From a virus, in the IMG/VR virus record IMGVR_UViG_3300017750_000091, positions 1-26,353 of that record: a stretch of DNA of 26,353 nt. The stretch is one strand, 5' to 3'. Within the stretch, counting starts at the first letter, position 1; each line of letters opens with the position of its first letter. Of the stretch, positions 1,606 to 25,100 are shown in pieces. The notes beneath the pieces are model-generated. The model made no database searches. It was not told the DNA's origin and saw nothing but the letters and a program-made list of their open reading frames with translations. The position numbers were made by a program, and so were the translations under genes.

Positions 1606-2550
1606 ATGTCTAACACTACCTCTGGTTCTTATGTTTTTGATAAGAACCTCGGAATCGATGAAATTATTGAAGATGCGTACGAACGTATCGGTATGCAAGG
1701 AGTCTCTGGCTATCAGTTAAAGACAGCCAAGAGATCCTTGAATATTTTATTTTCTGAATGGGGCAATAGAGGCTTGCAATTTTGGGAAGTTAAAAATCAA
1801 AACGTAGCTTTGATTGATGGACAAGCTGTATATACTTTTTACCGTTCACCAACAGATGGTTTATCTAGTGGAATTACTACAACGTTATCGGCAGGAATAA
1901 ATGCTAGTGTAGCAACTATTGGAGTTGCATCTGTTAGTGGAATGCCTACGACAGGCGGAATTATAAAAATTAATAGTGAAGAAATTTCTTACTCAGGAAT
2001 ATCAAGTTTAAATTTAACTGGTTGTGTAAGAGGCCTTAATGGTACTACAGCAGCTATTCATAACTCTGCAGACACCGTAACTCAGTTTCCAAATGGAATG
2101 ACAGATATTCAAGAAGCTAACTACAGAGTTGCTTCTACAAATGTTGATACACCTATGACAAAAATTAGTAGATCACAGTATCAAGGATTTTCAAATAAAA
2201 CAGATAAAGGTTTACCAACTCAATATTGGGTTCAAAGATTTATAGATAAAGTTACAATGACTTTATATTTAACTCCTGGTAGTTCTCAGGCAGGTAATTT
2301 TATAAATTTTTATTACACAAAAAGAATTGATGATGTAGGTGCTTATACAAATGCAAGTGATGTACCATATAGATTTGTTCCTTGTATGATTGCAGGTTTA
2401 TCATATTATCTAGCGGTAAAATATGCACCGCAAAGAGTACAGGAATTAAAATTATTATATGAAGATGAATTGTTAAGAGCAGAAGATGAAGACGGTTCTT
2501 CTAACTCTACATACATTTCACCTAAAATATATTATCCGGGTATTGGTTAA
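1606..2550 (+). CDS. P22 gp4-like tail adaptor / head-completion protein with inserted module
   Basis: The 314-residue protein has an N-terminal helical region (residues 17-62: IDEIIEDAYERIGM, then TAKRSLNILFSEWGNRG and LQFWEV) characteristic of P22 gp4-like tail accessory factors, which attach the tail to the portal ring. Residues about 89-160 are an inserted beta module (TTTLSAGIN ... EEISYSG ... LTGCVRGLNGTTAAIH) that recurs in two other proteins of this window. The gp4-like core then resumes (YWVQRFIDKVTMTLYLTP, FYYTKRIDD, and helices around AGLSYYLAVKYAPQRVQELK). It starts one base after the previous stop, with an AGGAG site. It ends in TAATG, shared with the next gene. Confidence 0.65.
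   Translation: MSNTTSGSYVFDKNLGIDEIIEDAYERIGMQGVSGYQLKTAKRSLNILFSEWGNRGLQFWEVKNQNVALIDGQAVYTFYRSPTDGLSSGITTTLSAGINASVATIGVASVSGMPTTGGIIKINSEEISYSGISSLNLTGCVRGLNGTTAAIHNSADTVTQFPNGMTDIQEANYRVASTNVDTPMTKISRSQYQGFSNKTDKGLPTQYWVQRFIDKVTMTLYLTPGSSQAGNFINFYYTKRIDDVGAYTNASDVPYRFVPCMIAGLSYYLAVKYAPQRVQELKLLYEDELLRAEDEDGSSNSTYISPKIYYPGIG
1870..2085 (+). repeat. Recurring tail module, copy 1 (protein level)
   Basis: It encodes residues about 89-160 of the gp4-like protein. The pattern is T-T-L, then an A-T-I strand, G-G-I-I-K-I, E-E-I-S-Y, L-T-G-C-V-R-G-x-N-G-T and a final A-x-H. The same order of motifs occurs at 2916-3176 and 15293-15517. Nucleotide identity is not obvious by eye, so the copies are old. 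Confidence 0.6.
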
Positions 2551-3347
2551 TGACAACTTTTGCGCAAGGTAAATATGCATTAGCAATATCTGATAGATCA
2601 GGCATGGCTTTTCCATATAATGAAATGGTTAGAGAATGGAATGGTGCTTTAGTTCACATATCAGAATACGAACCCAAACAACCACAATTAGATCCTAAAC
2701 CAACAAGTGCAGATCCACAAGCTTTACAAAGAGCAAGACCTGCAAGAACTGAATTTCCTACAGAAGATTTCTTACCAGAAAATCCTTTTGTAACAGCTTC
2801 AAACACAACTTTAAAAATTAATTTTCCAAATGGTGGTCTTTTATTAGATGACCAGGTTAGGTTTCGTAACGTTAAATCATCAGTAGGTGGTGTAGCAGTT
2901 GCAACATTGCAATTGTCAACAACTTTAAACGGAGCTATTACAGATACAGCTACTACAATTGATCTAACAGATGGCTCAGAGTTTCCAACATCTGGTTTTA
3001 TAGTTATTGAAAAAGTAAATAGTGAAACTGGAATTTTCGAAAACGAAGTTATTGAGTACACGGGTAGAACTTCAAATCAACTAACGGGTTGTGTAAGAGG
3101 GACAAGTGCACCATACAGAGGCGTGTCTCCTGAGTCGACAACAGCAAGATCTCATTCTAATTTAGCAAAAGTTTTTGGGTCTTATAAAGTGGCATCTTTA
3201 AATACTACTTCAGTTGAAGGAACAGGCCAGCCACAATTTTCAACTCAATTTGATGGAATAAATGTTACATTAGTTAGTGCTGCTAGCAGCACAGAAACAG
3301 GAGGCGGTTTTCAGTGTACAATTGGACCCGTTAATGATAGAGGTTAA
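2550..3347 (+). CDS. Marine-phage tail-region protein carrying the recurring module
   Basis: The 265-residue protein has a conserved-looking N-terminus (ALAISDRSGMAFPYNEMVREW, residues 10-30, continuing to a YEPKQPQL segment). I associate this with marine phage proteins encoded between the tail adaptors. A Pro/Ala-rich linker follows (50-80), then a beta region with NFPNGGLLLDDQVRFRNV. Residues about 123-209 are the recurring module (LSTTLNGAI, TTIDLTDGSEFPTSG, EVIEYTG, LTGCVRGT). The C-terminus ends in a beta segment GFQCTIGPVND. Start and stop are coupled to both neighbours, the upstream junction being TAATG. A role in head-tail joining is inferred from position. No enzymatic signature is seen. 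Confidence 0.55.
   Translation: MTTFAQGKYALAISDRSGMAFPYNEMVREWNGALVHISEYEPKQPQLDPKPTSADPQALQRARPARTEFPTEDFLPENPFVTASNTTLKINFPNGGLLLDDQVRFRNVKSSVGGVAVATLQLSTTLNGAITDTATTIDLTDGSEFPTSGFIVIEKVNSETGIFENEVIEYTGRTSNQLTGCVRGTSAPYRGVSPESTTARSHSNLAKVFGSYKVASLNTTSVEGTGQPQFSTQFDGINVTLVSAASSTETGGGFQCTIGPVNDRG
2916..3176 (+). repeat. Recurring tail module, copy 2 (protein level)
   Basis: It encodes residues about 123-209 of the preceding CDS. It has the same motif order as copies 1 and 3: TTL, TTIDLTDGSEFPTSG, EVIEYTG, LTGCVRGT, then a histidine near ARSH. It carries about 10-15 extra residues before the E-V-I-E-Y strand and around APYRGVSPES. Confidence 0.6.
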
Positions 3348-7130: not shown

Positions 7131-8051
7131 GTGGCTGACTTTGGATACAAAATCTTAGGATTTGGAGGGGGTTCAAGAGTAATTACTCCTTTCGTTTCAG
7201 CTACGGGTGGTACAGAAACCACTTGTGGTAATTATAAAATACATGCATTTACTGGTAGCGGTACACTTCAAGTTTTAAACGAAGGTACACCTGCAGGATC
7301 TACTTCATTTGAATATTTTGTTGTAGGTGGTGGTGGATTACCAGGAAGTTTTTACACCGGCGGCGGTGGAGGAGGCGGAGGCTTCAGAAATAATATTGGA
7401 TCTCCTGCCTTTGGAGGTTTAACTGCCGTGTTTGGTGCACAGCCTGTAACAGTCGGTGCAGGAGGTGTAGCTCCAGGAACTGGAAATGGAGGGTCAGCGG
7501 GAACTGATTCTTCTTTTAGTTCTATTTCATCTACTCGTGGAGGTACTGCAAATCAATCAGGAGGATCGGGAGGCGGAGGAAACTCTAGACAACCCGGCGG
7601 AGCTGGTAATGCAGGAGGGTTCTCTCCACCAGAAGGAAGCACAGGAGGAGCCGGAGGACCGTCAGGATGCTCGCCAGGAGGCGGCGGAGGCGGCGGAAAA
7701 GGCGGCGTAGGAAGTGTGGGACAACCAGGATTTAACGGTCCAGGAGGCCCAGGCGGAAACGGAGAAGGTATAGCTACATCTTTTTGGGGACCAACAGCAC
7801 CATCTTATGGAACACCAGGACCATCAGGTTCTAACAGATATTTTTCCGGAGGCGGCGGAGGCGGAGCTTATAGTCCGGGCACAAACAGATCCGGATCTGG
7901 AGGATACGGCGGAGGAGGAACAACTAATTCACCTTCACCAGCAAACTCTGGAGGCGGAGGAGGAGCAGGAACTTTCCATGCTTACCCACCAAACTATCAC
8001 CCATCAAGCGGAGGAAGCGGACTAGTTGTAATTAAATACAAGTTCCAATAA
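7131..8051 (+). CDS. Glycine-rich tail adhesin (Gly_rich_2-like), GTG start
   Basis: The 306-residue protein starts at a GTG 11 bases after the previous stop, with AGGAGG at 7122-7127. Residues 36-66 form a beta segment (YKIHAFTGSGTLQVL, then FEYFVVGGGG). The centre (about 66-283) is mostly Gly with Ser, Asn, Pro and Thr. It has poly-Gly blocks at 77-84, 183-189, 240-245 and 274-278 and a short G-x-y stretch at 197-211 (GQPGFNGPGGPGGNG). The C-terminus is a final strand LVVIKYKF. This is the layout of glycine-rich phage adhesins, in which Gly blocks may stack as polyglycine II helices as in gp38 of some T-even phages. It probably binds the receptor. Overlapping + ORFs here are by-products of low complexity. 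Confidence 0.7.
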   Translation: MADFGYKILGFGGGSRVITPFVSATGGTETTCGNYKIHAFTGSGTLQVLNEGTPAGSTSFEYFVVGGGGLPGSFYTGGGGGGGGFRNNIGSPAFGGLTAVFGAQPVTVGAGGVAPGTGNGGSAGTDSSFSSISSTRGGTANQSGGSGGGGNSRQPGGAGNAGGFSPPEGSTGGAGGPSGCSPGGGGGGGKGGVGSVGQPGFNGPGGPGGNGEGIATSFWGPTAPSYGTPGPSGSNRYFSGGGGGGAYSPGTNRSGSGGYGGGGTTNSPSPANSGGGGGAGTFHAYPPNYHPSSGGSGLVVIKYKFQ

Positions 8052-8055
8052 CACT

Positions 8056-8565
8056 ATGGCACACTTTGCAAAATTAGATGAAAACAATAATGTAATAGCA
8101 ACAGTAGTTGTAGACAACGATAAGCTAATAAAGAACGGTGTTGAAAACGAAGAGGTTGGTATTAACTATTTAAGAAACTGTTTTGGTTGGGAGAATTGGA
8201 AACAATACTCTTACAATACAGGCTCTGGAAAATATTGGGTTTACAATAGACAGGGCTTTGATGACAATGGTGTAGAAACCATGGCAGAAAAAATTGAAGG
8301 ACCAGATCAATCTAAAGCATTTAGAAAAAATGCAGCAGGTATAGGTTCTACATACGACCCTGTAAGAGATGCTTTTATTCCACCTAGACCTACTAATGAA
8401 GATGGGTCTGTTGTGTTTAGTTCTTGGGTTTTAAACGAAGAGACTTGCAATTGGGATCCACCAGTTGATTATCCAAATACTACAACAGATGGTATTTTAG
8501 ATTCTTATGATTGGAATGAATCTACACAATCTTGGGATGGACCTACTGTCCACAAGCCTGAATAG
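8056..8565 (+). CDS. Short tail-associated protein of a cyanophage/marine phage family
   Basis: The 169-residue product starts MAHFAKLDENNNVIATVVVDND and contains a segment around INYLRNCFGWENWKQYSYN, then KNAAGIGSTYDPVRDAFIPPRP and two tryptophan motifs near the end (SWVLNEETCNWDPP and YDWNESTQSWDGP). I recognise this layout from a family common in marine myo- and podoviruses. Its biochemical function is, to my knowledge, undetermined, but it is regularly encoded near tail fibres. It starts four bases after the adhesin stop and has only a weak ribosome site, suggesting coupled translation. It is the last structural gene before the enzyme cassette. Confidence 0.6.
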   Translation: MAHFAKLDENNNVIATVVVDNDKLIKNGVENEEVGINYLRNCFGWENWKQYSYNTGSGKYWVYNRQGFDDNGVETMAEKIEGPDQSKAFRKNAAGIGSTYDPVRDAFIPPRPTNEDGSVVFSSWVLNEETCNWDPPVDYPNTTTDGILDSYDWNESTQSWDGPTVHKPE

Positions 8566-8605: not shown

Positions 8606-9139
8606 ATGAAAGAAGTAAAGCTAACAAAAACATCAATATTCCATCAAGATTTATCTTCATTATCTAAATTAGATAATAAGAAATTAAAAATTGATTGTAT
8701 TGTTTTTCACGAAACTTACGAAGGTGAGTTCGGTTATGATAAAGATATTGAAATTCCTAACGATCAACAAGTAGATTGGTTATCTGATCACATGAGACAT
8801 CATTTTGATTTTCATTATAATCGAGCTTTACAACAATGTTTACCCCATACTCTTTTAATAAATGACCCTAACGAAGGAACGGTATTAAGAAGCCACAACC
8901 TTTATCTACAAGACATATCTAAAACTCCAGAGATTATAGGTATTTATTTTGTAGAAGCAGATGAAAAAGATGAAATTATATTTCATTATGATGATCATAT
9001 CCAAAAAGATTTAATGTGGAGAATGCCTATTAAATCTAAAAAATTTGTTTTGTTTCACAGTAGTTTAAAATATTACCTGCCACCTAACCCTTCTAAAAAG
9101 AAAAGAATAGCTTTGCTATTTCATTATCAAGTAAGATGA
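8606..9139 (+). CDS. Degenerate 2OG-Fe(II) oxygenase-like protein, probably inactive
   Basis: The 177-residue first member of the cassette has a C-terminal half that follows the double-stranded beta-helix pattern of its neighbours: LRSHNLYLQDI (His97), IIGIYFVEADEKDEIIFHY, KFVLFHSSLKYYLPPN, KKRIALLFHY with Arg167. Where active members have HxD or HxH and a distal His, this one has HNL and Tyr-Tyr (156-157), so two of three iron ligands appear lost. It may be a scaffold, a regulator or a diverged enzyme using other residues. The N-terminus (to about 90) is unrecognised. There is no ribosome site before the ATG. The stop overlaps the next start (ATGA). Confidence 0.5.
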   Translation: MKEVKLTKTSIFHQDLSSLSKLDNKKLKIDCIVFHETYEGEFGYDKDIEIPNDQQVDWLSDHMRHHFDFHYNRALQQCLPHTLLINDPNEGTVLRSHNLYLQDISKTPEIIGIYFVEADEKDEIIFHYDDHIQKDLMWRMPIKSKKFVLFHSSLKYYLPPNPSKKKRIALLFHYQVR

Positions 9140-9750
9140 TTTTAGAAGATTATTACTGGTACTTTAAGTCTGCAATTCCTGAGAATGTCTGTGACCAAAT
9201 TATTGCTCATGCTAAAGATAAACCTGTGCATGATGCCTTGGTGGGAAACGAAGGACAGAAAGCAGAATTAGTTCACAGTGCTAAAAAAAGACAGTCTAAC
9301 ATTTCATGGTTAAATGATCCTTGGATTAAGTTTCAAGTAGATCCTTATGTACAAGCTGCTAACGAAGCTTCAGGTTGGAATTTTAAATACGATGCTACTG
9401 AACTAATTCAATTTACTAAGTATGGCCCTAAACAATATTATGATTGGCATTGTGATAGTTGGCCTGCTCCATACAATAAACCAAACGAACCATTGCTTAA
9501 TAAAAAAATTAGAAAGCTTTCTGTTAGTGTTTTGTTGTCTGATCCAAAAGATTTTAAAGGCGGTGAGTTTGAATTTGATTTTAGAAATCATGACCCCAAA
9601 GATAAAGAAAATAAACAAGTAGCAAAAGAACTTAACAAAAAAGGTTCTATGATAGTTTTCCCTTCTTTTATTTGGCATAGAGTTAAACCTGTAACGAAAG
9701 GAGTGCGATACTCATTGGTGCTTTGGTACCTTGGGCATCCTTGGAAATAA
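9136..9750 (+). CDS. 2OG-Fe(II) oxygenase, prolyl-4-hydroxylase-like
   Basis: The 204-residue protein carries a full catalytic set: His105 and Asp107 (YYDWHCDSW), the GGEFEF strand at 142-147, distal His181 (FPSFIWHRV) and Arg191 (GVRYSLVLWYLG) for 2-oxoglutarate. Spacing and strands match the P4H/PiuC-like oxygenases common in marine T4-like phages. The reaction would couple 2OG decarboxylation with hydroxylation or another oxidation. The substrate is unknown. It starts inside the previous stop (ATGA) and ends in TAATG with the next gene, so translation is coupled. This is the most canonical oxygenase of the cassette. Confidence 0.85.
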   Translation: MILEDYYWYFKSAIPENVCDQIIAHAKDKPVHDALVGNEGQKAELVHSAKKRQSNISWLNDPWIKFQVDPYVQAANEASGWNFKYDATELIQFTKYGPKQYYDWHCDSWPAPYNKPNEPLLNKKIRKLSVSVLLSDPKDFKGGEFEFDFRNHDPKDKENKQVAKELNKKGSMIVFPSFIWHRVKPVTKGVRYSLVLWYLGHPWK

Positions 9751-10430
9751 TGGAACAACCTTGGTATAAAACAATGGACGGAGGTCCTAGCAACCCAAAC
9801 TTTAAAGAAGAACTTTATTTTAGTTCACCTGTTTGGTTTGAACAGTGCTTAGATTATTTAGAACTTGTAGATAAAATAAGTGACAGACATATAAAAGCTG
9901 AAAAGAAAAGAAGAGCTAAAGAAGTAAAAGAAAATAAAGATCGTAATTTAACTTATCAATCAGGGGGACTAGAAAGAGTTGAAGAGTTAAAAGGTTTTGT
10001 AGAATATATAGGTCAACGTGCTTGGGATTTTTTAGATTACCAAGGGTATGATTTAAGCAAGCAGAGCTTAATCTTTACAGATCTTTGGGCTCAAGAGTTT
10101 GCTAAAAATGGTGGTGGTTATCAGGACACACATACTCATGGTAACTGTCATGTCACAGGTTTTTATTTTGTTAGTTCTTCTAATCAAACATCTAAAGCTA
10201 TTCTTCATGATCCTAGATCTGGAGCAATGATGACAAAGCTACCATTAAAAAAACCCGAAGATATAACAAATGGTAACTCAACTATTATATTTAATACTGT
10301 TCCAGGTACGTTAATGTTGTTTAATAGCTATTTGCCACATTCATTTTCACTTGATCTTGGAAAAGAAAAATTTAAATTTATACACTTTAATTTACGAGCT
10401 GTGCCTCAAGGAGTAATGGGACATGTTTAA
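9750..10430 (+). CDS. 2OG-Fe(II) oxygenase of the TIGR02466/2OG-FeII_Oxy_5 type
   Basis: The 226-residue protein starts at the ATG of TAATG. A TTG-started extension to 9723 is possible but would overlap its neighbour without need. Residues 41-75 are a charged helical stretch (HIKAEKKRRAKEVKENKD). The oxygenase core shows DTHTHGNCHVTGFYFV (His128-x-His130), AILHDPRS, GTLMLFNSYLPHSF with distal His197, and IHFNLRA. The 2OG-binding Arg seen in relatives is Lys in KFKFIHFN. The HxH pair and 'tGfYfv ... DPR' pattern fit the 2OG-FeII_Oxy_5 family rather than P4H. It overlaps the next gene by 8 bases. Substrate unknown. Confidence 0.75.
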   Translation: MEQPWYKTMDGGPSNPNFKEELYFSSPVWFEQCLDYLELVDKISDRHIKAEKKRRAKEVKENKDRNLTYQSGGLERVEELKGFVEYIGQRAWDFLDYQGYDLSKQSLIFTDLWAQEFAKNGGGYQDTHTHGNCHVTGFYFVSSSNQTSKAILHDPRSGAMMTKLPLKKPEDITNGNSTIIFNTVPGTLMLFNSYLPHSFSLDLGKEKFKFIHFNLRAVPQGVMGHV

Positions 10431-11103
10431 AAAGAAAAAATATCTAATAATTAAACAGGCTATTTCAAAAGACTTAGCTGAGTTTGTGTACACATATTTT
10501 ACTATGAAAAGAGAAGTGTGCAGAACTTTATTTAGAGATAAATTTATACCACCTTTTGAAAAGATACATGGTGCGTGGACAGATCCTCAAATGCCAGACA
10601 CATATTGTTTGTATGGGGACTGTGCTTTTGAATCAATACTTTTAAAAGTAAAACCATTATTAGAAAAACACATGAAAGTTAAACTAATACCAAACTATGC
10701 GTTTGGTCGTCTCTATAAAACAGGGGACATTCTTCCTAGACACAAAGACAGATTTAGTTGTCAGTTTTCTACAACGTTAAATTTAGGTGGAGACATGTGG
10801 CCTATATATTTAAATCCAAATGAAAAAGAAGGTCATTTAGTTTTTGATGAAGATGGTAATGGGGTGGATTATGTTATGAGCAAAAGTAAAGGAGTAGCTA
10901 TAAACCTTGGACCTGGAGATATGTTATTGTACAGAGGTGATTTACTAGAACACTGGAGAGAACCTTTTACAGGTAAAGAATGTGCACAAGTATTTTTTCA
11001 TTATACAGACCAGGCTGCAAAAGGAGCTCACGACAATATTTTTGATACTAGACCACATCTTGGTTTGCCACCATACTATAGGAAAGGCCATAGAATAATC
11101 TAA
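10423..11103 (+). CDS. 2OG-Fe(II) oxygenase-like protein (HxD type)
   Basis: The 226-residue protein has FGRLYKTGDILPRHKDRFS with His107 and Asp109, a strand TTLNLGGDMWPIYLN, a loop rich in Glu/Asp, then GPGDMLLYRGDLLEHWREPF with distal His177 and Arg179, and a last strand AQVFFHYTD. The metal triad is complete. The usual 2OG Arg near the last strand is Gln189, though Arg179 or Arg110 could serve. I recognise this layout from cyanophage and pelagiphage genomes. A good AAGGAG site (10408-10413) lies inside the preceding gene, so it may be translated independently. It joins the methyltransferase gene in a TAATG overlap. Confidence 0.75.
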   Translation: MFKKKKYLIIKQAISKDLAEFVYTYFTMKREVCRTLFRDKFIPPFEKIHGAWTDPQMPDTYCLYGDCAFESILLKVKPLLEKHMKVKLIPNYAFGRLYKTGDILPRHKDRFSCQFSTTLNLGGDMWPIYLNPNEKEGHLVFDEDGNGVDYVMSKSKGVAINLGPGDMLLYRGDLLEHWREPFTGKECAQVFFHYTDQAAKGAHDNIFDTRPHLGLPPYYRKGHRII

Positions 11104-11759
11104 TGATATATTATGAGGGTCCTTTAAAAGGATCAGCAAGCAAAGAAAGAGTTTTTGATATACTAAACAAAGAAGCTGTTATTGATTCTGCTAATTATAT
11201 AAAACCTTTTATAAAAGATTGTGTAATTATGGAAGAGAAGTGGTGGGGTATTACTTTAAACCACATAACAAAGAAAGGATTACACCTAGAGTTTGGAGTA
11301 CACAGAGGAGAAAGTATTAATTATTTTGCACAAAATAAACCAGATATTACATGGTATGGTTTCGATAGCTTTGAAGGTTTGCAAGAAGACTGGAAGGGTG
11401 GTATGTTAGCAAAAGGACACTTTACTTTAAATGGCAAAGAACCAAAAGTATTGCCTAATGTCTCTTTAATAAAAGGTTGGTTTAAAGATACACTTCCATT
11501 GTTCTTAAGTAAAAATAAAAACAAAATGAGTTTTATACATATTGATTGCGATACGTACGAGTCCACTAAAGATGTCTTTGATTGTATCGACAAGAGCCTC
11601 TTACAAAAAGGTACTATTATATTGTTTGATGAGTACATGGGTTATACCGGGTGGAGAGAGAACGAATTTAAAGCATGGCAAGAGTACGTTAATAAAAACA
11701 AAATTAAATATAAATATATTGCTTTTGGTGAAGAACAAGCATTAATAAAAATACTGTAA
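11103..11759 (+). CDS. SAM-dependent methyltransferase, TylF/MycF-like O-methyltransferase
   Basis: The 218-residue class I methyltransferase shows motif I at 62-69 (LEFGVHRG), an acidic post-I residue Asp88 in WYGFDSFEGL, then FIHIDCDTYEST (Asp148, Asp150) and IILFDEYMGYTGW (Asp176, Glu177). This acidic pattern is typical of metal-dependent sugar or macrolide O-methyltransferases such as TylF and MycF, and of related phage and glycan-cluster enzymes. Length is near normal for the family. It lies mid-cassette, with one-base overlaps on both sides. It could methylate a hydroxyl, possibly one made by a neighbouring oxygenase (inference). The acceptor is unknown. Confidence 0.8.
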   Translation: MIYYEGPLKGSASKERVFDILNKEAVIDSANYIKPFIKDCVIMEEKWWGITLNHITKKGLHLEFGVHRGESINYFAQNKPDITWYGFDSFEGLQEDWKGGMLAKGHFTLNGKEPKVLPNVSLIKGWFKDTLPLFLSKNKNKMSFIHIDCDTYESTKDVFDCIDKSLLQKGTIILFDEYMGYTGWRENEFKAWQEYVNKNKIKYKYIAFGEEQALIKIL

Positions 11760-12211
11760 TGAAAGAGGTAGAAGTGTTTAAGAATTATCTACCTAAAGAT
11801 GAGTGCGAAGAGTATGCTTCATTGATCAGGGACCTGGGACCAGGGAACTTTGATTGGTCAGAAAGAACGGTAGAAATTACTAATGACTCTATTGTAGAAA
11901 GAGTCTCTGATTTTTTTAAAGAAAAATTAAATTTAGATCTAACAATATCAATGGCTCAATTACAGAATTGGCATGTAGGTTCTGAAGGTGCTTTACATTT
12001 ACATAAAGGAAGAGGGACCGAAGAGAGCAAATATAATAGTTTAATATATTTAAACGATGACTTTGAGGGTGGTGAGTTTTACACAAAGAATCAAATAATA
12101 AAACCTCAACAAGGTATGTTGACTATTTTTGATGGTAGTGTAACATATCATGGAGTTAAAGAGGTTAAGAAGAAAGATAGGAAGACAATTATTTTATGGT
12201 GGAAAAAGTAA
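11759..12211 (+). CDS. Compact 2OG-Fe(II) oxygenase with HxH pair
   Basis: The 150-residue protein is close to the minimal size for the fold. It has QLQNWHVGSEGALHLHKG with His80 and His82, then SLIYLNDDFEGGEFYT, the I-K-P-Q-Q-G turn, LTIFDGSVTYHGVKEV with distal His131, and RKTIILWW with Arg141. The order and spacing are exactly those of P4H-type enzymes, except that the Asp of HxD is His82. Whether it still binds iron through HxH is open. It starts at the ATG of TAATG and runs 16 bases into the next gene. No clear ribosome site is seen, so reinitiation is likely. Confidence 0.75.
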   Translation: MKEVEVFKNYLPKDECEEYASLIRDLGPGNFDWSERTVEITNDSIVERVSDFFKEKLNLDLTISMAQLQNWHVGSEGALHLHKGRGTEESKYNSLIYLNDDFEGGEFYTKNQIIKPQQGMLTIFDGSVTYHGVKEVKKKDRKTIILWWKK

Positions 12212-13377
12212 AGCATAGTCTACAATCATTTTATATTGTAGATGAATTTAAAGAACACAAGAAATTAAAAACAGAATTATTTGAAGCTGTTAATAATGCA
12301 CGTTCTGATTTCTTAGAACAGAAAGACACATACTATACAGACAACATTGAAAGACTAGATTGGTTAGATGCAAAAAAATTTGATAGAGAATGGGTTAAAA
12401 TTATATACCCACATCTAAGTAAGTTTTTAAAAAAGAAATTAAAAGATGCTGGTTATGATGGATGTGTAATAAAAAATATTTGGTTTCAACAATACGGTAA
12501 TGAAGGAACACACGGTTGGCATGTGCACGGACACACATTTACAGGAGCTTATTATTTAGACTTACCTAAAGATGGACCACCTACTGAAATTATAGATCCG
12601 TTTGATCACGGTAGAATAACACCACTTAAAGTCAAAGAAGGTGATGTAAGTATCTTTCCAGCTTATGCTGTTCACAGATCACCTACTAATAACTCACAAA
12701 GTAAAAAAACTATTATATCATTTAACCTAGAAGTTAATAAACCAACTAAAAAATTATTGAATAAAATAAATTCTAGTTATGTAATACACGCTAATCATCC
12801 AGACTATTTGTACTCAATACAATTAGACTCAATAGATAATAAAGAGTTAGTTAAATTTAGTTTAGAAGTCGAGAAGATGTTGCGTAAAAATTTACCACAC
12901 AATAGTGACCCTGAGTGGTATGGTACTTTTACTACAGCTAATCATCACGCATATAATTTTTTAACTTTTCCTAGCTCAGCAGTGTTAAAACTTTACCATG
13001 AAATTTTAAAAAATGTTTCTCCGTTATTAGAAGACAGACCATACATGATAAAATCATGGGTTAATGTTTACCGAAAAGGAGAAAAGGTAGATTGGCATAA
13101 TCACTGGCCAGCAGACAAAAAAGTATGGCACGGTTTTTATTGTGTCCAAGTTGGTGATAGTCACACTGATTATAGAATTCCAAACGTGCCACATATAACA
13201 CGAGTAGTAAGTAAAGAAGGTTTGTTAGTTGTGGGTAAAAGCGAAGATGATCAACACAGAAGCTCACCTTGGAATGAAAGCAAAAGACCTAGAATAACTA
13301 TAGCTTTTGATATAGTACCTATTGATTCTATAGATAATAAATTAAATCCTAACCACTTTATACCATTTACATTATGA
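12196..13377 (+). CDS. Tandem two-domain 2OG-Fe(II) oxygenase-like protein
   Basis: The 393-residue protein carries two oxygenase-like cores. Domain 1 has GTHGWHVHGHTFTGAYYLDL (His109-x-His111), GDVSIFPAYAVHRSPT with distal His160, and KKTIISFNLEV, where Lys replaces the usual Arg. Domain 2 has VNVYRKGEKVDWHNHWP (His301-x-His303), WHGFYCVQVG, GLLVVGKSEDDQHRSS with distal His354, and RPRITIAFDI with Arg364/Arg366. Both have HxH instead of HxD. Domain 2 has the more complete 2OG-binding end. The first 16 bases overlap the preceding gene, and AGGAAG about 11 bases upstream may help initiation. It joins the next gene by ATGA. It could be a fusion or a duplicated enzyme. Confidence 0.7.
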   Translation: MVEKVKHSLQSFYIVDEFKEHKKLKTELFEAVNNARSDFLEQKDTYYTDNIERLDWLDAKKFDREWVKIIYPHLSKFLKKKLKDAGYDGCVIKNIWFQQYGNEGTHGWHVHGHTFTGAYYLDLPKDGPPTEIIDPFDHGRITPLKVKEGDVSIFPAYAVHRSPTNNSQSKKTIISFNLEVNKPTKKLLNKINSSYVIHANHPDYLYSIQLDSIDNKELVKFSLEVEKMLRKNLPHNSDPEWYGTFTTANHHAYNFLTFPSSAVLKLYHEILKNVSPLLEDRPYMIKSWVNVYRKGEKVDWHNHWPADKKVWHGFYCVQVGDSHTDYRIPNVPHITRVVSKEGLLVVGKSEDDQHRSSPWNESKRPRITIAFDIVPIDSIDNKLNPNHFIPFTL

Positions 13378-13883
13378 TAAAAGCATGTCCATTTGTACCC
13401 TATGATGATCCTTTAATAATAGATTATTTAAAAGCATACACAGATAAAAACTCTTGTTGTTCTCAATACCCTAAATGTACTCATCCAAAACTACAATCAG
13501 ACGCGTATGTTTTTAAAGACAATAATAAAACAGTTCAATACTTAAAAGAAAAGTATTTTAAATTTTTAGAAGATTTGTTTGGTCCACAAAAAGTAGAACT
13601 ATCTAAAGCGTGGGTGTTGCATGTAAGAGCGGGGGAGACAACTCCAGCTATTTGGCATAGACATTCTGAGGATCAGTATAAAAATAAAATTCAAGTCTCA
13701 GGTATTTGTTATCTTACACCTACCATTTTAGGAACTGAGTTTGACTCAACGTATTGCACGTTACAGATAAAACCCATGGCTTATACCTGGTATCTGTGGG
13801 ACTCTAACAATTTACATAGACCTATAGAAGGGGTGCAGAAAACAGATCGTTTAATATTAGCAACTCAAACTGTTTTAGGTTAA
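13374..13883 (+). CDS. 2OG-Fe(II) oxygenase-like protein, HxH type
   Basis: The 169-residue protein begins with a Cys-containing segment (MIKACPFVPYDDP; CCSQYPKCTH at 28-37) whose four cysteines could bind metal or be incidental. The oxygenase core follows: KAWVLHVRAGETTPAIWHRHS with His95 and His97, VSGICYLTPTILGTEF, the I-K-P turn, YLWDSNNLHRPIEGV with distal His148, and DRLILATQTVL with Arg159. It is coupled by ATGA to the two-domain protein upstream and by TAATG to the sulfotransferase downstream. The VSGICYL strand after the HxH resembles the 2OG-FeII_Oxy_5-type gene at 9750. Substrate unknown. Confidence 0.7.
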   Translation: MIKACPFVPYDDPLIIDYLKAYTDKNSCCSQYPKCTHPKLQSDAYVFKDNNKTVQYLKEKYFKFLEDLFGPQKVELSKAWVLHVRAGETTPAIWHRHSEDQYKNKIQVSGICYLTPTILGTEFDSTYCTLQIKPMAYTWYLWDSNNLHRPIEGVQKTDRLILATQTVLG

Positions 13884-14626
13884 TGAAAAAATTTTATTTT
13901 CTATGTAGTCTTCCTAGAGCCGGTAATACTTTGTTTGCTTCTTTAATGAATCAGAACAAAAATGTACTAGTCTCTCCATATAGTGTAGTACCTAATTTAA
14001 TTAAACCTATACTAGATATAAAAAACCATAGAAATTTTTTATCTTTTCCAGACCATAGTTTAGTAGACAATGTTCTAAATAACTTGTTAGATAATTGTTA
14101 TACAAGTTGGAATGCTAACCGCATCATAGATCGGGGACCATGGGGACACCCAGACTGTCTTCCATACTTAAAGAATATAGTACCAGACGCAAAATTTATT
14201 ATTCTTTACAGACCTATTTTAGAAGTTCTAGCTTCTGTTGTTGCATTAGATAAACCAGAAGATCCTGTATCTTATTGTGATCATTTAATGACCGGTAGTT
14301 TTGTATCCGATGGGTATCAATCTATTAGAAATTTAGTACAACAAAAAGAAAAATACATAGTTGTACAGTATAACGACCTAATTAAAGATCCTGTAAATAC
14401 AGTTAAAACTGTGTGTAATTTTCTTGATATAGATTATGAGACACTTAAGCTCAAATCTTTAGACCAGTATAGCGTTAATGGAATATCTTATGATGATACC
14501 TTTTTTAAAGGCCCTTATCATGATATAAGGACTGACAGTATTAAAAAAAATAAAAGGGATATTGACGAATGGTTGCCCTCAGAGGTAGTGAAACGCTACT
14601 CTGCCTGGGATTTATCTTTTGATTGA
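13883..14626 (+). CDS. PAPS-dependent sulfotransferase-like protein
   Basis: The 247-residue protein has the two cofactor motifs of sulfotransferases: SLPRAGNTLFASLM at 9-22 (5'-phosphosulfate loop) and FIILYRPILEVLASVV at 105-120 (3'-phosphate binding, Arg110 and Ser118). The later VVQYNDLIKDPVNTVKTVC then FLDI segment is the usual sulfotransferase 'YEDL ... dP ... FLgi' block. The enzyme would move sulfate from PAPS to a hydroxyl or amine of a glycan, lipid, tyrosine or small molecule. No signal peptide is seen, so it acts in the cytoplasm. It is the last gene of the cassette, starting at TAATG. A P-loop kinase is the less likely alternative. Confidence 0.75.
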   Translation: MKKFYFLCSLPRAGNTLFASLMNQNKNVLVSPYSVVPNLIKPILDIKNHRNFLSFPDHSLVDNVLNNLLDNCYTSWNANRIIDRGPWGHPDCLPYLKNIVPDAKFIILYRPILEVLASVVALDKPEDPVSYCDHLMTGSFVSDGYQSIRNLVQQKEKYIVVQYNDLIKDPVNTVKTVCNFLDIDYETLKLKSLDQYSVNGISYDDTFFKGPYHDIRTDSIKKNKRDIDEWLPSEVVKRYSAWDLSFD

Positions 14627-14656: not shown

Positions 14657-16840
14657 ATGCTACAGAAACTAGGATTTTTACCAGGATTTAATAAACAAGT
14701 CACCGAAACTGGGGCCGAAGGGCAATGGTTTGATGGTGATAATGTACGTTTTAGATATGGCACACCTGAAAAAATAGGTGGTTGGTCTCAATTAGGAGAT
14801 GATAAATTAACCGGTGCAGCTAGAGCATTGCATCATTTTGACAATAACTCCGGTATTAAATATGCTGCTATAGGAACAAATAGAATTTTATATGTTTATT
14901 CTGGGGGTCGGTTTTATGACATACACCCTATTAGAACGACAATCAGTGCGGTTAATTTTACAAGTCAAACTGGTTCACCAACAGTAACCGTAACTTTTTC
15001 AACACCTCATCTTTTGCAAGATGATGACATAGTTTTATTTAATAATGTAACCGGTATTACGGGATCGGGATCTGCATTTGCAAACGGTAACTTTGAAGAT
15101 ATTAAATACATGGTAACTGCTGCACCATCAGCTAATACAATTGAAATAACTATGGGCGGTAATGAAGGTGCTAGTCCTATGACAAATACAGGAAGCGCCG
15201 ACGCTTTATTATATTACCATGTTGGACCAGCTAAACAGGTAGGAGGTTTTGGTTGGGGTACAGGACAATGGGCAGGAACAGTCTCAGGTCCAGCTACAAC
15301 TACCTTGGCTACAACGATAAACTCTTCTACGACAACTATAGTTTTAACCGACTCTACACAATTTCCTGGATCAGGAGAAATAAGAATCGGTACCGAAGAT
15401 ATATCTTACACAAACAACGATACTGCTACAGGAACATTGAGCGGCGGAGGTAGGGGTGTCAATGGTACAGGACCAGGTGTAGGACACACTGCGGGCGACG
15501 CTATAACAAACATTTCTAGTTTTGTTGCATGGGGTGAATCTTCTTCAGACGACGTAACACTAGATCCTGGTTTATGGGTTTTAGATAACTTTGGAACAAA
15601 ATTAATTGCTTTAATTTATAATGGAGAATGTTTTGAATGGGACTCTTCACCTACTAACGCAACAGACATTAGAGCAACAATAATACCAAATGCGCCTACC
15701 GCATCACGTCATGTTTTGGTATCAACACCGGACAGACACTTAGTATTTTTTGGAACAGAAACTCAGGTTGGAGCGGAAACTACTCAAGACGATATGTTTA
15801 TTAGATTTTCTGATCAAGAAAATATTTCTGGTTCAACAGCATACACAGTAACTGCAACCAATACGGCAGGTACTCAAAGACTTGCAGATGGCTCTATGAT
15901 TATGGGGGCTATTAGAGGTAGGGACGCAATCTATGTTTGGACTGATACAGCTTTGTTTCTCATGAGATTCGTAGGTCAACCATTTACTTTTGCATTTGAA
16001 CAAGTAGGTACCAACTGTGGCTTACTTGGTAAGAATGCATGTGTAGAAGTTGATGGCACAGCTTATTGGATGTCAGAAAACGGATTCTTTTCTTACGATG
16101 GTCAATTAAAATCTTTACCTTGTCTCGTAGAAGATTTTGTTTACGACGATATTAATACTACAGCTAGAGATGTAACTAATGCAGGATTAAATAATTTGTT
16201 TGGTGAGGTAACATGGTTCTATTGTAGTGATGGATCTGATGTAGCTGATCGATCAGTAACTTATAACTATTTAGATTCAACAAATAAAAGACCTATCTGG
16301 ACAACAGGATCTTTAGCTAGAGCTGCATGGTCAGACTCTGCTGTTTTTGGTAGACCACATGCAACATTCTATGATCCAACAAGTAACGCGTCTTATGACG
16401 TAGCAGGAAATGTTGACGGATGTAGTACATACTTTGAACACGAAACAGGGACCGATCAAGTATTAGCTGGAGGAGCTACAACAGCTATTATAGGAACTAT
16501 AACATCAGGAGATTTTGACATTACACAAAGACGAAGCAACACAGGGCAGGCAATAGGTACTCCCGATTTAAGAGGTGATGGTGAATACATAATGAAAATA
16601 CGTAGATTTTTACCAGATTTTATTTCACAAGTAGGGACTACAACAATAGATTTTACAACAAGAGACTTTCCAAATAGTTCTTCTAAAACACAGACCTTTA
16701 CAACTACGTCAGCAACAACTAAAGTAGATACTAGAGTCCGTGCAAGATCTATAGCGATGACTGTAAAGAACACAGCTACATCTCAAGATTGGAAATTGGG
16801 TACGTTTAGATTAGATATACAACCGGACGGGAGAAGATAA
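14657..16840 (+). CDS. Large tail hub/nozzle-like protein with module insertions
   Basis: The 727-residue protein opens with QKLGFLPGFNKQVTETGAEG and WFDGDNVRFRYGTPEKIGGW, a start I associate with P22 gp10-like or tail-hub (nozzle) proteins of podoviruses. The body is all beta (ILYVYSGGRFYDIHP, GLWVLDNFGTKLIAL, HLVFFGTETQ, YVWTDTALFLMRF, AYWMSENGFFSYDG), consistent with a propeller. Residues about 98-190 are one inserted beta domain. Residues about 213-287 are the recurring module shared with two adaptors. Near the end are TFTTTSATTKVDTRVRARS and a DWKLGTFRLDIQPDGRR finish. It probably completes the tail tube below the adaptors. AAGGA precedes the ATG. Separation from the other tail genes by the enzyme cassette is notable. 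Confidence 0.6.
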   Translation: MLQKLGFLPGFNKQVTETGAEGQWFDGDNVRFRYGTPEKIGGWSQLGDDKLTGAARALHHFDNNSGIKYAAIGTNRILYVYSGGRFYDIHPIRTTISAVNFTSQTGSPTVTVTFSTPHLLQDDDIVLFNNVTGITGSGSAFANGNFEDIKYMVTAAPSANTIEITMGGNEGASPMTNTGSADALLYYHVGPAKQVGGFGWGTGQWAGTVSGPATTTLATTINSSTTTIVLTDSTQFPGSGEIRIGTEDISYTNNDTATGTLSGGGRGVNGTGPGVGHTAGDAITNISSFVAWGESSSDDVTLDPGLWVLDNFGTKLIALIYNGECFEWDSSPTNATDIRATIIPNAPTASRHVLVSTPDRHLVFFGTETQVGAETTQDDMFIRFSDQENISGSTAYTVTATNTAGTQRLADGSMIMGAIRGRDAIYVWTDTALFLMRFVGQPFTFAFEQVGTNCGLLGKNACVEVDGTAYWMSENGFFSYDGQLKSLPCLVEDFVYDDINTTARDVTNAGLNNLFGEVTWFYCSDGSDVADRSVTYNYLDSTNKRPIWTTGSLARAAWSDSAVFGRPHATFYDPTSNASYDVAGNVDGCSTYFEHETGTDQVLAGGATTAIIGTITSGDFDITQRRSNTGQAIGTPDLRGDGEYIMKIRRFLPDFISQVGTTTIDFTTRDFPNSSSKTQTFTTTSATTKVDTRVRARSIAMTVKNTATSQDWKLGTFRLDIQPDGRR
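15293..15517 (+). repeat. Recurring tail module, copy 3 (protein level)
   Basis: It encodes residues about 213-287 of the hub protein: TTTLATTINSSTTTIVLTDS, TQFPGSGEIRIGTEDISYT, LSGGGRGVNGTGPGVGHTAGD. It has the same element order as copies 1 and 2 and is closest to copy 1 in length. The LTGC of the others is LSGG here, so the Cys is lost. Confidence 0.6.
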
Positions 16841-20819: not shown

Positions 20820-22151
20820 ATGAGACCATTAAATAGACCAATGTTTAGATACGGCGGCCCTATTAAAGAGGGTATCATGGATGGTATTCGAGAACCTAAA
20901 AGAGATGGTAACATAGTTGGAGGACGTCAGTCACCTAAACTAGCTGGTGCCCATCCTTTAAAAGATGCAAGCGGTAGAGAACATCACCTATTTCCTGCTG
21001 GTGTTGCAATAGGTGCAGGTTTAAACGCTTTAAGAATAGGTGCTATGAGAATGGCTCCAAGAGCAATTACAGGAATTAAAAATTTCTTTAGAACACAAAC
21101 AGGTTCGGTAGGACCAGGATCTGTAAAAATACCAGCAGCTCCTGGTACAAAAGGAAGATTTTTACCACAAAATGTAAAAACTGTACAAAAATCTGGGCCA
21201 GAGATGCCTATATATTCACCTAACTTTTTAGGTAGAGATCCATCAGTTAAATTAGTTGGCGGTGTCTACAAAGCAGTTACAGATCCAAGAGTAACTGGTG
21301 TAGCTGGTAAAGCAGCTAGATTAGTATTCTCTCCTACAGGAGCAATAACTGGTTTACTTTATGCAAACGGAAGATATTTTAATAAAGACACTGGAGAAGA
21401 GGTTCCACCACCACCAAATGCAGGTGATTTAAAAATTGGTGACAGAGTCACTGGCACGTCTGGAGCACCAGGAGGCGGGGACCCGGGAATGTATTTAGAA
21501 CCTCAAGCTAAAGGCAATGAGGGTGCAACATTATCAGCTGATGAATTACGTAAGAAAAGAGTTGAAAGATACAGAGACATTATGGATATCAAAGGTATGA
21601 ACAAAGATGCTGCATACAATTCTTTAATTGAAGCAAGTAGAATAATTAATGAGTCTGGTGATTTCAAAGGTGATCTTAAATCAGGTAATTTAATTAACCA
21701 AGTTATTCAGGCAACAAGTAAAGCATTTGACAAACCTAAAGCAACTAAAGATGCAATTGATACACTTATACTTAAAGGTGAAATTGAAAAAGATATTAAA
21801 GCTTCTGATCCACAAACTCAGGCAAAAGCTGATCTACTACAAAAACAAATAAAAATTGCTGATAAAACATTAGCAGGCGACACCTTTACAGATATTATTA
21901 CTGAAAGATATTCAAAAGGTAAAGTACCAAGAGGTAAAGAATTAGCTGGCATACTTCGTGCAACAGAAAAAGTTGACGTATCAGTAATTGACTCAACTGA
22001 CATACCACAAGGTGTAGATGCACAAACATTCTTTGAAGCACAAGTTAATGAAAAAATTTCTAAGGGAGAACAAGTCGTTCCAGGTTACTATGTTATCGAT
22101 GATAGAGTACTTGTTATAGATCAACAAGGTAAAGTAAGCCCTATTTTATAG
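20820..22151 (+). CDS. Probable internal virion protein with MFRYGGPIKEGIMDGI start
   Basis: The 443-residue protein opens with MRPLNRPMFRYGGPIKEGI, continuing MDGIREPKR, a start that recurs in marine phage contigs. Next is a hydrophobic helix near residues 59-75 (FPAGVAIGAGLNALRIGAM), a Gly/Pro/Lys-rich region and another hydrophobic stretch (LVFSPTGAITGLLYANGRYF). A long charged helical C-terminal half follows (LRKKRVERYRDIMDIKGMN; IDTLILKGEIEKDIKA). It ends in a small beta domain (VPGYYVIDDRVLVID). Its position between two putative internal proteins supports a role in DNA ejection or core assembly. AGGAA precedes the ATG. No enzyme motif is seen. Confidence 0.5.
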   Translation: MRPLNRPMFRYGGPIKEGIMDGIREPKRDGNIVGGRQSPKLAGAHPLKDASGREHHLFPAGVAIGAGLNALRIGAMRMAPRAITGIKNFFRTQTGSVGPGSVKIPAAPGTKGRFLPQNVKTVQKSGPEMPIYSPNFLGRDPSVKLVGGVYKAVTDPRVTGVAGKAARLVFSPTGAITGLLYANGRYFNKDTGEEVPPPPNAGDLKIGDRVTGTSGAPGGGDPGMYLEPQAKGNEGATLSADELRKKRVERYRDIMDIKGMNKDAAYNSLIEASRIINESGDFKGDLKSGNLINQVIQATSKAFDKPKATKDAIDTLILKGEIEKDIKASDPQTQAKADLLQKQIKIADKTLAGDTFTDIITERYSKGKVPRGKELAGILRATEKVDVSVIDSTDIPQGVDAQTFFEAQVNEKISKGEQVVPGYYVIDDRVLVIDQQGKVSPIL

Positions 22152-22159
22152 GAGGGTAG

Positions 22160-25100
22160 ATGGCTAACATTTTTGATACCAGTTCATACGCACCAAAAAA
22201 TAAAGTAGGTACATTTGAATCTATGCTGTCAGGTGTAGCGTCAGGTCTAATTGCTATACCAAAAGGTTTCTTTTCTTTAGGCGCAAGTCTTATGGATCTT
22301 GGAGTTAACAGCGGTAAAGCTGCTGCGGTTGAAGCTTGGTTTGATGACCTTACAGAATTTGATGAGAAAGCAGAAGCAACAGCTGCGGGTAAAATTACAG
22401 AAGCATTAGTCAACATAGGTGTACCCGGCGGTATTGCATTTAAATCTGCTAGCGGCATGGCAAAGACTGCAATGCTTGCAGGTAAAAATAATAAGTATGT
22501 AAGACTAGGAAATAAAAATTTAGTTGGTGCAGCAGACGAAGCACTAGAACTTACAGCTGCAGGTAAAGGCAGACAGTTTGTTGCCGGTGCATTAGGCGGT
22601 GGTGTAGCAGAGGGTGTGTTTGTTGGTGACGCAGAAGCTATTGGTACGTTTGGAGATCTTATTGGTGGCCCAACTAAAATAGATAGAAGTGACACGGACC
22701 CAGATGCAACAAGAGAAATATTAAATAGAATTAAATTTGGTACAGAGGGTGCATTATTTACAGGTATCCTTGGTGGTACAGGTGCAGTTATTAAAAAAAT
22801 AACAAACAGGAACAAGGGATTAGATACAGCTAACTCACAATTAGATAGATGGATTGATAAAGTTGCAGAAAAATTTAGAGCACGTAGTGGTAAGACACAA
22901 GAATTTTTTGACATAGAGAGACAGTCTATTGGTGCGCAGGCAGCTGATGCAAATGTTGCAAGAAATTTATCAAGAGAACTTGATGTAGATGTCGATAAAC
23001 TATTCCCACCAATGCGTACTGTATTCAACAAACAAAATGCAAAAGAAAGAACAAAATTTTTAGGTGACGTAAACGATGCATTGTTATCTGGTGAAGCAAG
23101 ACTTGGCGATGATGGTGTTGCAGCATTTGGAGAAATAGATGCGGTTGCTAAACAAAGAGTTATAGATGGCATTAAAAAGTTTGCACCTAATGCACAAGTC
23201 GCAGAAGAATTAGAAAAATCTATTCTTGGTGGTCTGTCTGTTATGAGAAGTAAATGGTCTGAATTATTTTCTAAACTTGGTGGTTCATTAGACGCTGCAG
23301 ATATACAAGCTTTTAAAAAATTATTTGGTGGTAAGTTTAAAAACTATCTTGGTTCTACGTACGATATCTTTCAAGACAAAAGTATTTTACCGTGGATGAG
23401 ATACAAACCTTCAGCAGAAGCAATAACTAATGCTAAAGATTTATTTAAGGCAAGTGCAAAAGAAGCAGGTAAAGATCTTACAGATTTAGAAGCAGAGCAA
23501 ATTGTAAACAACGTATTAAAAACTTCTGGATTACCTAAAGGTTTAAGAATGGACAAACCTTCTGATGCATTATTTAATATACCAGACTTCTTTGTAAATA
23601 GAACTGCATTAGATGATGCAGTTAAAAGAGGTGGAGTACCTAGAATTTCAATTAGAGATGTAGCATCAGAAGCAGATCAAAAAGTATTTAATGATTTATT
23701 TGGTAAACAAAAAAATCCTATGCAAACAATGATAGGTGGTATGGCTAAACTATCTTTAATTACAAGACGTAATTTATTTTATGATGATTTAATTAAAAAG
23801 AATGATGAAGTTGTTGCTAACTTTAGAAATGCTACAGATAAAACTACTGTTCCGCAACCTATGTTTGCTAGATCAGAAGCAGAAGCTAGAGCTTTCTTCG
23901 GTGATGACTTTACTAGAGTAGAAGTTATTGACCCTGCTCAAACTTTAAACGTAAACATTGCATCAGGTGCAAGTAATCCTTTTGGTGATATTGCACAACC
24001 TTTCTTTGCAAGACCAGGTGTTGCTGAAGCAATGAAGAACACATCTTTAAATACACAAAGCGCAGGTATATTAGGTAGACTGTATGAAAGTTTAGTATTG
24101 TATCCTAAAGCTACATCACAGATTGCTAAAACAATTTTATCACCAGTAACACATTTAAGAAACTTTGTTAGTGCTGGAGCTTTTGCTGCAGCAAACGGTA
24201 TTGTACCTGCAGCCGACACAGCAGCAATTAAACAAGCTTATCAAGCATTACAAACACCACTTAAAGGCACTAGACAACAGAATGATCTATGCCAAGAACT
24301 ATTAGAACTAGGTGTTGTAAACTCAAACGTAAGACTTGGAGATCTATCTAGACTGTTACAAGATGTAAACTTTGGTGAAACCATGACATCTGACAAAGGT
24401 ATGAGATTATTGTTAAAGCCGTTATCAAAATTAAAATCTGTATCACAAGATTTATACACAGCAGAAGATGATTTTTGGAAAATATATTCTTGGGCTGTAG
24501 AAAAATCTAGATTAGAAAAAGCATACGAAAAGATTGGTGTAACAAGAGGACAGTTTTTTAAACGTAATGGTGTTGACGTAAGACTTGATGAAAAATTTTT
24601 AAAAGAAGAAGCAGCCAATATTGTAAGAAACAATATACCTAACTATGACTATGTATCTGACTTTGTAAAAGGTTTAAGAAAACTACCTATCGGTAACTTC
24701 GTATCTTTCCCAGCAGAGATAGCTAGAACAGGTACAAATATTGTAAGACGAGCATTAAGAGAGATAAACGAAACTATAACTTTACCTGATGGTAGAACTG
24801 TAAAACCTATGGAAGGTATTGGATATACTAGATTATTAGGTTTTACGACTACAGTTGCAGCGGTACCAGTAGCTACAACAGCAGCATTTCAGGCCCTATA
24901 CGACGTCACAGACGAGGAAAGAGAAGCTATCCGTAGGTTTGCAGCCCAATGGTCTAAAAACTCTACTTTACTACCTATAAAACAAGAAGATGGTAGTTTT
25001 AAATACATAGACTTTAGTCATGCTAATGCATACGATACATTAATTAGACCGCTACAATCAGTAGTCAATGCTGTTCAAGACGGTAGAACAGATCAAGACG

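Follow-up and report, generated by a model that had tools for sequence, protein, structure and literature searches.

We analyzed a 26,353-base virus fragment from IMG/VR (IMGVR_UViG_3300017750_000091; the whole stretch is referred to here as the window) and a gene cassette in its tail region, at positions 8606 to 14626. The window is best explained as carrying an example of a hypervariable island for oxidative tailoring, one that moves with a tail-adhesin module in HTVC023P-type pelagiphages and related phages. Nine open reading frames (ORFs) fill the cassette in the order O1, O2, O3, O4, MT, O5, O6, O7, ST. Seven of the products (O1 to O7) together contain eight double-stranded beta-helix (DSBH) domains; the other two are a TylF-type O-methyltransferase (MT) and a sulfotransferase (ST). 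Neighboring ORFs from O1 through ST overlap by 1 to 16 nt at ATGA or TAATG junctions, which suggests translational coupling; gaps of 40 nt before O1 and 30 nt between ST and the tail hub gene set the cassette off. These nine overlapping ORFs, and near-identical copies of them in independent contigs, confirmed the original prediction that a nine-gene cassette lies here. We excluded a chimeric assembly, since the cassette or parts of it were 99 to 100% identical in independent contigs from several metagenomes (L002, L003, L004, L083, L084, and L087). Our material throughout was sequences and predicted folds.

We then looked at related loci, collected with window proteins as search queries. These loci are fragments, partly kin to each other, and the locus counts are valid for contigs picked by hub or cassette similarity. 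Among 118 loci with a hub, both island borders were recovered in 59, and DSBH genes occupied the tail-region slot in all 59. The island lay directly before the hub in 55 of these, and one or more other genes intervened in 4 (an adhesin pair or, in L035, g8056, a small tail-region gene). Reduced by gene string, the islands numbered 44, with 1 to 10 DSBH genes each (median, 6). DSBH genes made up 241 of the 323 island ORFs, and 16 O1 genes came on top of these, giving about 80% in one fold class, with DSBH membership in small clusters taken from one scanned representative or from the motif. Elsewhere on the same contigs, 11 of 619 ORFs were DSBH genes, 8 of which were accounted for by L145 and L163, where one adhesin pair has displaced the island. 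The difference between these two proportions excluded chance clustering. Tandem duplication of a single gene was also rejected, as the proteins are spread over several PHROG and Pfam families. Gene order was conserved: O1 came first in 9 of 9 islands, O2 preceded O4 in 34 of 34 and O3 in 21 of 22, and O3 preceded O4 in 19 of 21. The genes therefore occur together, in order, and in the same tail slot in related phages, which is the co-occurrence that the original prediction had proposed looking for.

The remaining genes were optional. MT was present in 8 of the 44 islands, ST in 5, a tryptophan halogenase in 5, a carbamoyltransferase in 2, and another methyltransferase in 1; JmjC/cupin proteins and an Asp/Asn hydroxylase were further additions. 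Only the window and L121 had MT and ST together, and MT was cleanly absent from L085, at a TAATG junction. The original prediction had envisaged that a single substrate is first hydroxylated and that the new hydroxyls then receive methyl or sulfate groups. Because MT and ST co-occur in only two islands, such a pathway does not hold as a rule, and islands with a halogenase or carbamoyltransferase instead weaken it further. With methyltransferase, sulfotransferase, halogenase, carbamoyltransferase, and JmjC genes each present in some islands and missing from others, the gene content points to a modular tailoring island and not to one fixed hydroxylate-methylate-sulfate pathway. A conserved protein of about 105 amino acids (cluster c20, e.g., L020:9664-9978), for which we found no convincing family match, was present in 9 of the 44 islands, often as the last gene before the hub. 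In L102 to L107, P0007-related loci from a different viral contig group, O6-like and O4-like genes lay on opposite strands near a fiber-like gene, a hint that these enzymes also occur in other arrangements.

Comparisons of divergence indicated that the history of the island is uncoupled from that of the phage backbone and coupled to that of the adjoining adhesin module. Pairwise identities of the hub, tail3350, g4096, and g18098 correlated mutually, as did those of O2, O3, O4, and g8056, and correlations between the two groups were mostly near zero; the hub thus evolves with the backbone and not with the island. In Mantel tests, r was 0.77 for O2 and O4 and −0.10 for the hub and O4. For g8056 and O4, r was 0.40 with the hub and a tail gene controlled for, a value reached in 0 of 2,000 permutations. 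Distance alone does not explain the coupling of g8056, because the hub is equally near on the island's right. Coupling between g5902 and the cassette was not significant in the Mantel analysis, and the usual left breakpoint therefore lies to the right of g5902.

Synonymous divergence (dS) pointed the same way. Between the window and L085, dS was 0.45 to 0.61 from the gene for a glycine-rich (Gly-rich) adhesin-type protein through O6 and 1.1 to 1.25 for O7, ST, and the hub. Between the window and L086, it was 0.89 for the hub and 0.42 for g5902 but 0.9 to 2.5 from the Gly-rich gene through O6. In both comparisons, dS stepped on the left side of the Gly-rich gene, which is the left end of the exchanged tract. 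These dS tracts show that the Gly-rich adhesin, g8056, and O1 to O6 were exchanged as one block in two phage pairs. The original prediction had placed the cassette between a tail-fiber-type gene and the tail hub; the hub does stand on the right, but the immediate left is occupied by the Gly-rich protein and g8056, both of which are candidate substrates of the cassette enzymes. The GC content was 0.28 to 0.35 in the cassette, 0.30 to 0.42 in its neighbors, and 0.50 in the Gly-rich gene.

The seven proteins, with eight domains, had been predicted to be 2-oxoglutarate (2OG)-Fe(II) oxygenases. Their DSBH nature was upheld by Pfam, by AF2 models searched with Foldseek, or by motif, but O1 lacks conserved metal ligands. 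The Pfam gathering score was passed by O2 (2OG-FeII_Oxy_3, 2e-15), O3 (2OG-FeII_Oxy_5, 4e-12), O5 (Oxy_3, 1e-9), and the N-terminal domain of O6 (Oxy_5/PF13759, 7e-11). For O4 and O1, a sequence-profile search of the PDB gave nothing useful, and predicted structures were needed. The O4 model (predicted local distance difference test [pLDDT] score, 94.7) had as its top Foldseek match the prolyl-4-hydroxylase 4j25 of Pseudomonas putida (5e-8), and its 50 best PDB structural matches were all 2OG oxygenases or DSBH proteins. The O1 model (pLDDT, 89.1) matched 3bvc, 2rg4, and PHD2, and its predicted fold resembles those of PF13759 proteins and PHD2. Most members thus proved to have the DSBH fold, O4 and O1 by AF2/Foldseek and O2, O3, O5, and the O6 N-terminal domain by Pfam, where the original prediction would have been overturned by other folds.

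Metal-site motifs were present in seven of the eight DSBH domains, all but O1. O2 and O4 have the canonical HxD/E...H site; O3, O5, both domains of O6, and O7 have HxH...H, and solved PF13759 proteins likewise have HxH. O2, which matches the PKHD hydroxylase PiuC, keeps its motif in 84 to 86 of 87 homologues, and O3 does so in 52 of 53. In O4, H107, D109, and H177 were invariant in 47 sequences. The second ligand site of O5 varies among 17 homologues: 10 have H and 7 have D. O7 had no Pfam match of weight; its W94, H95, and H148 were invariant, and H97 was replaced by N in one of five homologues. The C-terminal domain of O6 also occurs as a separate gene in relatives (stand-alone cluster c25). 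It and O7 are putative DSBH proteins, assigned from motif and homologues. The O1 family had no invariant His or Asp and no conserved HxD/H...H set, and O1 is for that reason probably not a catalyst. Its ratio of nonsynonymous to synonymous substitution rates (dN/dS) was 0.17, indicating purifying selection, and on its modeled fold it is a probable noncatalytic oxygenase-like subunit. Nearly all cassette genes compared had a dN/dS below 0.45. In Lysobacter, a cellular O4 homologue lies between peroxidase and mutS genes, a setting that gives no hint of its substrate.

Pfam profiles above cut-off also confirmed the two predicted transferases. MT matched TylF (PF05711; 1e-10, 41.7 bits, cut-off 23) and Methyltransf_24 (PF13578; 41.8 bits, cut-off 26.3). 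Its nearest solved relatives are the sugar O-methyltransferases CalS11, NovP, and MycF, to which it is weakly similar (best E value, 5e-6) and which, unlike MT, come from antibiotic pathways. On this sugar-type resemblance, a virion glycan may be the substrate. ST matched Sulfotransfer_3 (PF13469; 2e-13, 51.8 bits, residues 6 to 186, cut-off 27), with weak matches to CurM-type and tyrosylprotein sulfotransferases, and near its N terminus it carries a loop, SLPRAGNTLF, that fits the 3′-phosphoadenosine-5′-phosphosulfate-binding loop.

Several of these families carry other names in databases. O4 matched only PHROG families named "ferrochelatase," and its GenBank label is the same. We rejected a ferrochelatase identity for O4, which had no Pfam match (PF00762 included) and no ferrochelatase in its 50 best structural matches. 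Because the O4 family is structurally a 2OG oxygenase, as modeled, its members are mislabeled, and a pair of oxygenases is the better reading of the ferrochelatase-oxygenase partnership in the literature (PMC9599517). We likewise rejected O5 as a DNA endonuclease (PHROG 2297/274, endonuclease V), as it matched PF13640 at 1e-9 and no nuclease family. In cyanomyovirus syn9, genes labeled DNA endonuclease matched 2OG-FeII_Oxy_3 below the cut-off and had no nuclease match. The entries called "ferrochelatase" or "DNA endonuclease (V)" in PHROG 2954, 3531, 2297, 274, and 1644 and in syn9 (L173:15213-20676) appear to be 2OG/DSBH proteins, and "minor coat protein" on marine-phage genes of the same PHROG/RefSeq set probably denotes a 2OG/DSBH protein as well. 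These wrong labels have been passed on into published interpretations.

The tail hub is 44 to 46% identical to those of HTVC023P, HTVC027P, and 023Pt_psg01, and for this reason we place the window phage among relatives of the HTVC023P-type pelagiphages, with SAR11 as its inferred host. A DNA-level search of phage records returned a single 299-bp match near the left end of the window and nothing more. Two SAR11 single-cell assemblies, AG-404-L13 (L185) and AG-422-I02 (L187), hold DNA of related phages that includes this island. Since each contains a phage hub as well as the oxygenase island, these cells probably carried a phage infection when sorted.

Clustered 2OG genes are already known from these phages, with metabolic or repair readings (PMC9599517 and PMC3037559). 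Wittmers et al. (2022) described HTVC023P-type pelagiphages with 2OG-Fe(II) "partner-AMG" (auxiliary metabolic gene) clusters (PMC9599517). Those clusters resemble the cassette in phage type, in having several nonorthologous 2OG genes close together, and in that an O4-type "ferrochelatase" always adjoins one of them. They differ in that they were read metabolically, with ferrochelatase as a partner, and their genes are often not adjacent, whereas here O4 is an oxygenase, as modeled, the set is contiguous and includes MT and ST, and it is tied to an adhesin module. Oxygenase sets also lie beside tail fibers in cyanomyoviruses S-SM1, S-RSM4, syn9, and Sf-CH11 and in pelagiphage HTVC008M; P-RSM4 and S-SSM5 resemble S-SM1 and syn9 in carrying such enzymes near tail fibers. 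S-SM1 has a match to the Gly-rich protein, a g8056-like protein, 2OG genes, and two O4-like "ferrochelatases." In syn9, tail-fiber genes and two halogenases are followed by a long gene run with many DSBH genes, one of them O4-like and some annotated as DNA endonuclease V or minor coat protein. These T4-like cyanophage runs (syn9, S-SM1, and S-RSM4; Sullivan et al. 2010, PMC3037559) share with the cassette a DSBH run with O4-like genes beside tail fibers and g8056-like proteins, some with a halogenase or carbamoyltransferase. They belong, however, to cyanobacterial myoviruses, their proteins are 23 to 42% identical to ours, and the published readings are 2OG/nitrogen signaling or DNA repair. 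Relatives of g8056 adjoin 2OG genes in cyanophages.

Two enzyme comparisons bear on the chemistry. O2 and O4 share fold and metal motif with P. putida prolyl-4-hydroxylase (4j25) and with PKHD hydroxylases such as PiuC, but structural alignments gave about 13 to 18% identity, and the phage enzymes form part of a large cluster in a tail locus. The substrate of the P. putida enzyme is EF-Tu. Over its length, the island halogenase of L019 shares 35% identity with that of cyanophage Syn10, the flavin halogenase VirX1 (PMC8407142), whereas the window has no halogenase.

We propose that the cassette tailors tail adhesins, so that specificity and chemistry are swapped together, and on the present sequence evidence we regard this proposal as evenly balanced between right and wrong. 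The cassette genes would be coexpressed with the structural genes. O2, O3, and O4, which are prolyl/PKHD-hydroxylase-like, would add hydroxyls to side chains or glycans of the adjoining adhesins, perhaps aided by a noncatalytic O1, and the optional MT, ST, halogenase, and carbamoyltransferase would cap or further alter the hydroxylated sites with methyl, sulfate, halogen, or carbamoyl groups. The modification would alter receptor binding or mask the adhesin, and adhesin and chemistry would be exchanged as a unit. Support for adhesin tailoring comes from the presence of the island in all 59 two-border loci, its conserved order, its cotransfer with the adhesin, and the similar sets beside cyanomyovirus fibers, as well as from the resemblance of O4, a core enzyme, to protein prolyl hydroxylases and from the low dN/dS. 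A further argument is provided by cyanophage S-TIM4, in which a 2OG gene (ORF23) adjoins a tail-fiber gene and is among 20 genes, most of them virion genes, mutated on suboptimal hosts; the authors tied ORF23 to nutrient response (PMC6224464). The original prediction had named a host glycan, a small molecule, and the phage's own adhesin as candidate substrates, among which genomic linkage favors the adhesin. Several points weigh on the other side. With predicted folds and sequences as the basis, virion modification is putative; the Mantel sample was small (19 loci, partly related); linkage and cotransfer can also arise by hitchhiking at a recombination hot spot; MT is closest to sugar and not protein methyltransferases; and g8056-like genes occur in HTVC025P, Bellamy, and Melnitz with no annotated oxygenases nearby.

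The sugar-type methyltransferase, together with the sulfotransferase and the carbamoyltransferase of relatives, is typical of glycan decoration, and during infection the island might instead modify the lipopolysaccharide, capsule, or receptor at the host surface, for instance to keep out competing phages. Adhesin coupling would be expected if island and adhesin both track the receptor. We consider this unlikely, as the window island has no membrane-anchored or glycan-transfer gene, its hydroxylase core is prolyl/PKHD-like, and the genes sit in a structural block. A recombination hot spot could also gather unrelated cargo with separate substrates and no common function, in line with the very variable gene content and the gain and loss of optional genes at stop-start junctions. 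The single fold class of most island ORFs, the conserved order, the core in every two-border locus, and the recurrence of the set in myoviruses make this distinctly unlikely.

Auxiliary metabolism has been the published direction, with proposals of 2OG/NtcA nitrogen signaling through 2-oxoglutarate draw-down (PMC3037559), iron or heme metabolism with a ferrochelatase partner (PMC9599517), and AlkB-like repair of alkylated DNA (PMC2984593). A study of HTVC027P, which sorts the phage's genes into temporal classes, reports that infection raises host iron-transport genes (PMC12753301). With the "ferrochelatase" modeled as a 2OG oxygenase, and with a multiplicity, tail location, and adhesin cotransfer unexpected of metabolic genes, we find this explanation very improbable. 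The least probable is tailoring of a small molecule made during infection: tailoring typically employs enzymes such as the halogenase, methyltransferase, sulfotransferase, carbamoyltransferase, and many 2OG proteins of these islands, and the Foldseek matches of O4 include EvdO1, SnoK, and FtmOx1, but no scaffold-building gene (polyketide synthase, nonribosomal peptide synthetase, ribosomally synthesized and posttranslationally modified peptide precursor, or terpene) was recognized in the window island or the scanned island representatives.

Features of the cassette and its borders in the window
Feature	Position	Strand	Details
Gly-rich adhesin-type protein	7131..8051	+	306 aa, GTG start; PF21722 Gly_rich_2, 6e-7
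g8056, small tail-region protein	8056..8565	+	169 aa; phrog_7759, 3e-33
O1, DSBH fold, metal ligands not conserved	8606..9139	+	AF2 + Foldseek
O2, 2OG-Fe(II) oxygenase, core gene	9136..9750	+	PF13640; H105-x-D107...H181...R191
O3, PF13759 DSBH protein, core gene	9750..10430	+	PF13759; H128-x-H130...H197
O4, 2OG oxygenase by predicted structure, core gene	10423..11103	+	H107-x-D109...H177
MT, TylF-type O-methyltransferase, optional gene	11103..11759	+	PF05711
O5, short DSBH protein	11759..12211	+	PF13640; H80-x-H82...H131...R141
O6, two-domain DSBH protein	12196..13377	+	H109-x-H111...H160 + H301-x-H303...H354
O7, putative DSBH protein, weakest assignment	13374..13883	+	H95-x-H97...H148
ST, sulfotransferase, optional gene	13883..14626	+	PF13469
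Tail hub/stabilization-type protein, right border of island	14657..16840	+	phrog_3287, 3e-95

The start codon of O3 is most likely ATG 9750, which overlaps the O2 stop codon (TAATG), and not TTG 9723. Relatives of the hub are annotated "stabilization protein." Three different virion proteins of the window (1606-2550, 2550-3347, and 14657-16840) have in common an inserted repeat-like segment (consensus, TT..L...FP..G.I.I..E.I.Y..........G..RG..GT) that hub alignments to isolates leave out and that may be a mobile virion domain. A 343-amino-acid frame open on the minus strand (22141-23172), antisense inside the gene for a 1,299-amino-acid virion protein, is probably a mirror of codon usage.

In the literature that we searched, which left most subscription papers outside, we found no description of an oxidation-methylation-sulfation set, of the adhesin linkage, of "ferrochelatase" as an oxygenase, or of a degenerate O1, and a text search for phage 2OG enzymes tied to tail-fiber modification found none. 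If adhesins are indeed modified, this would explain the number of these enzymes, their variability, and their nearness to tail genes. It would displace the metabolic readings and the "ferrochelatase" based on a mislabel, would point to what viral halogenases such as VirX1 act on, and could be tested by mass spectrometry on phages already in culture. More broadly, and more tentatively, with the balance leaning somewhat against it, at least two marine phage families may have in common an exchangeable unit in which a tail adhesin travels with its own oxidative and group-transfer enzymes and virion tropism is diversified by posttranslational chemistry in addition to sequence.

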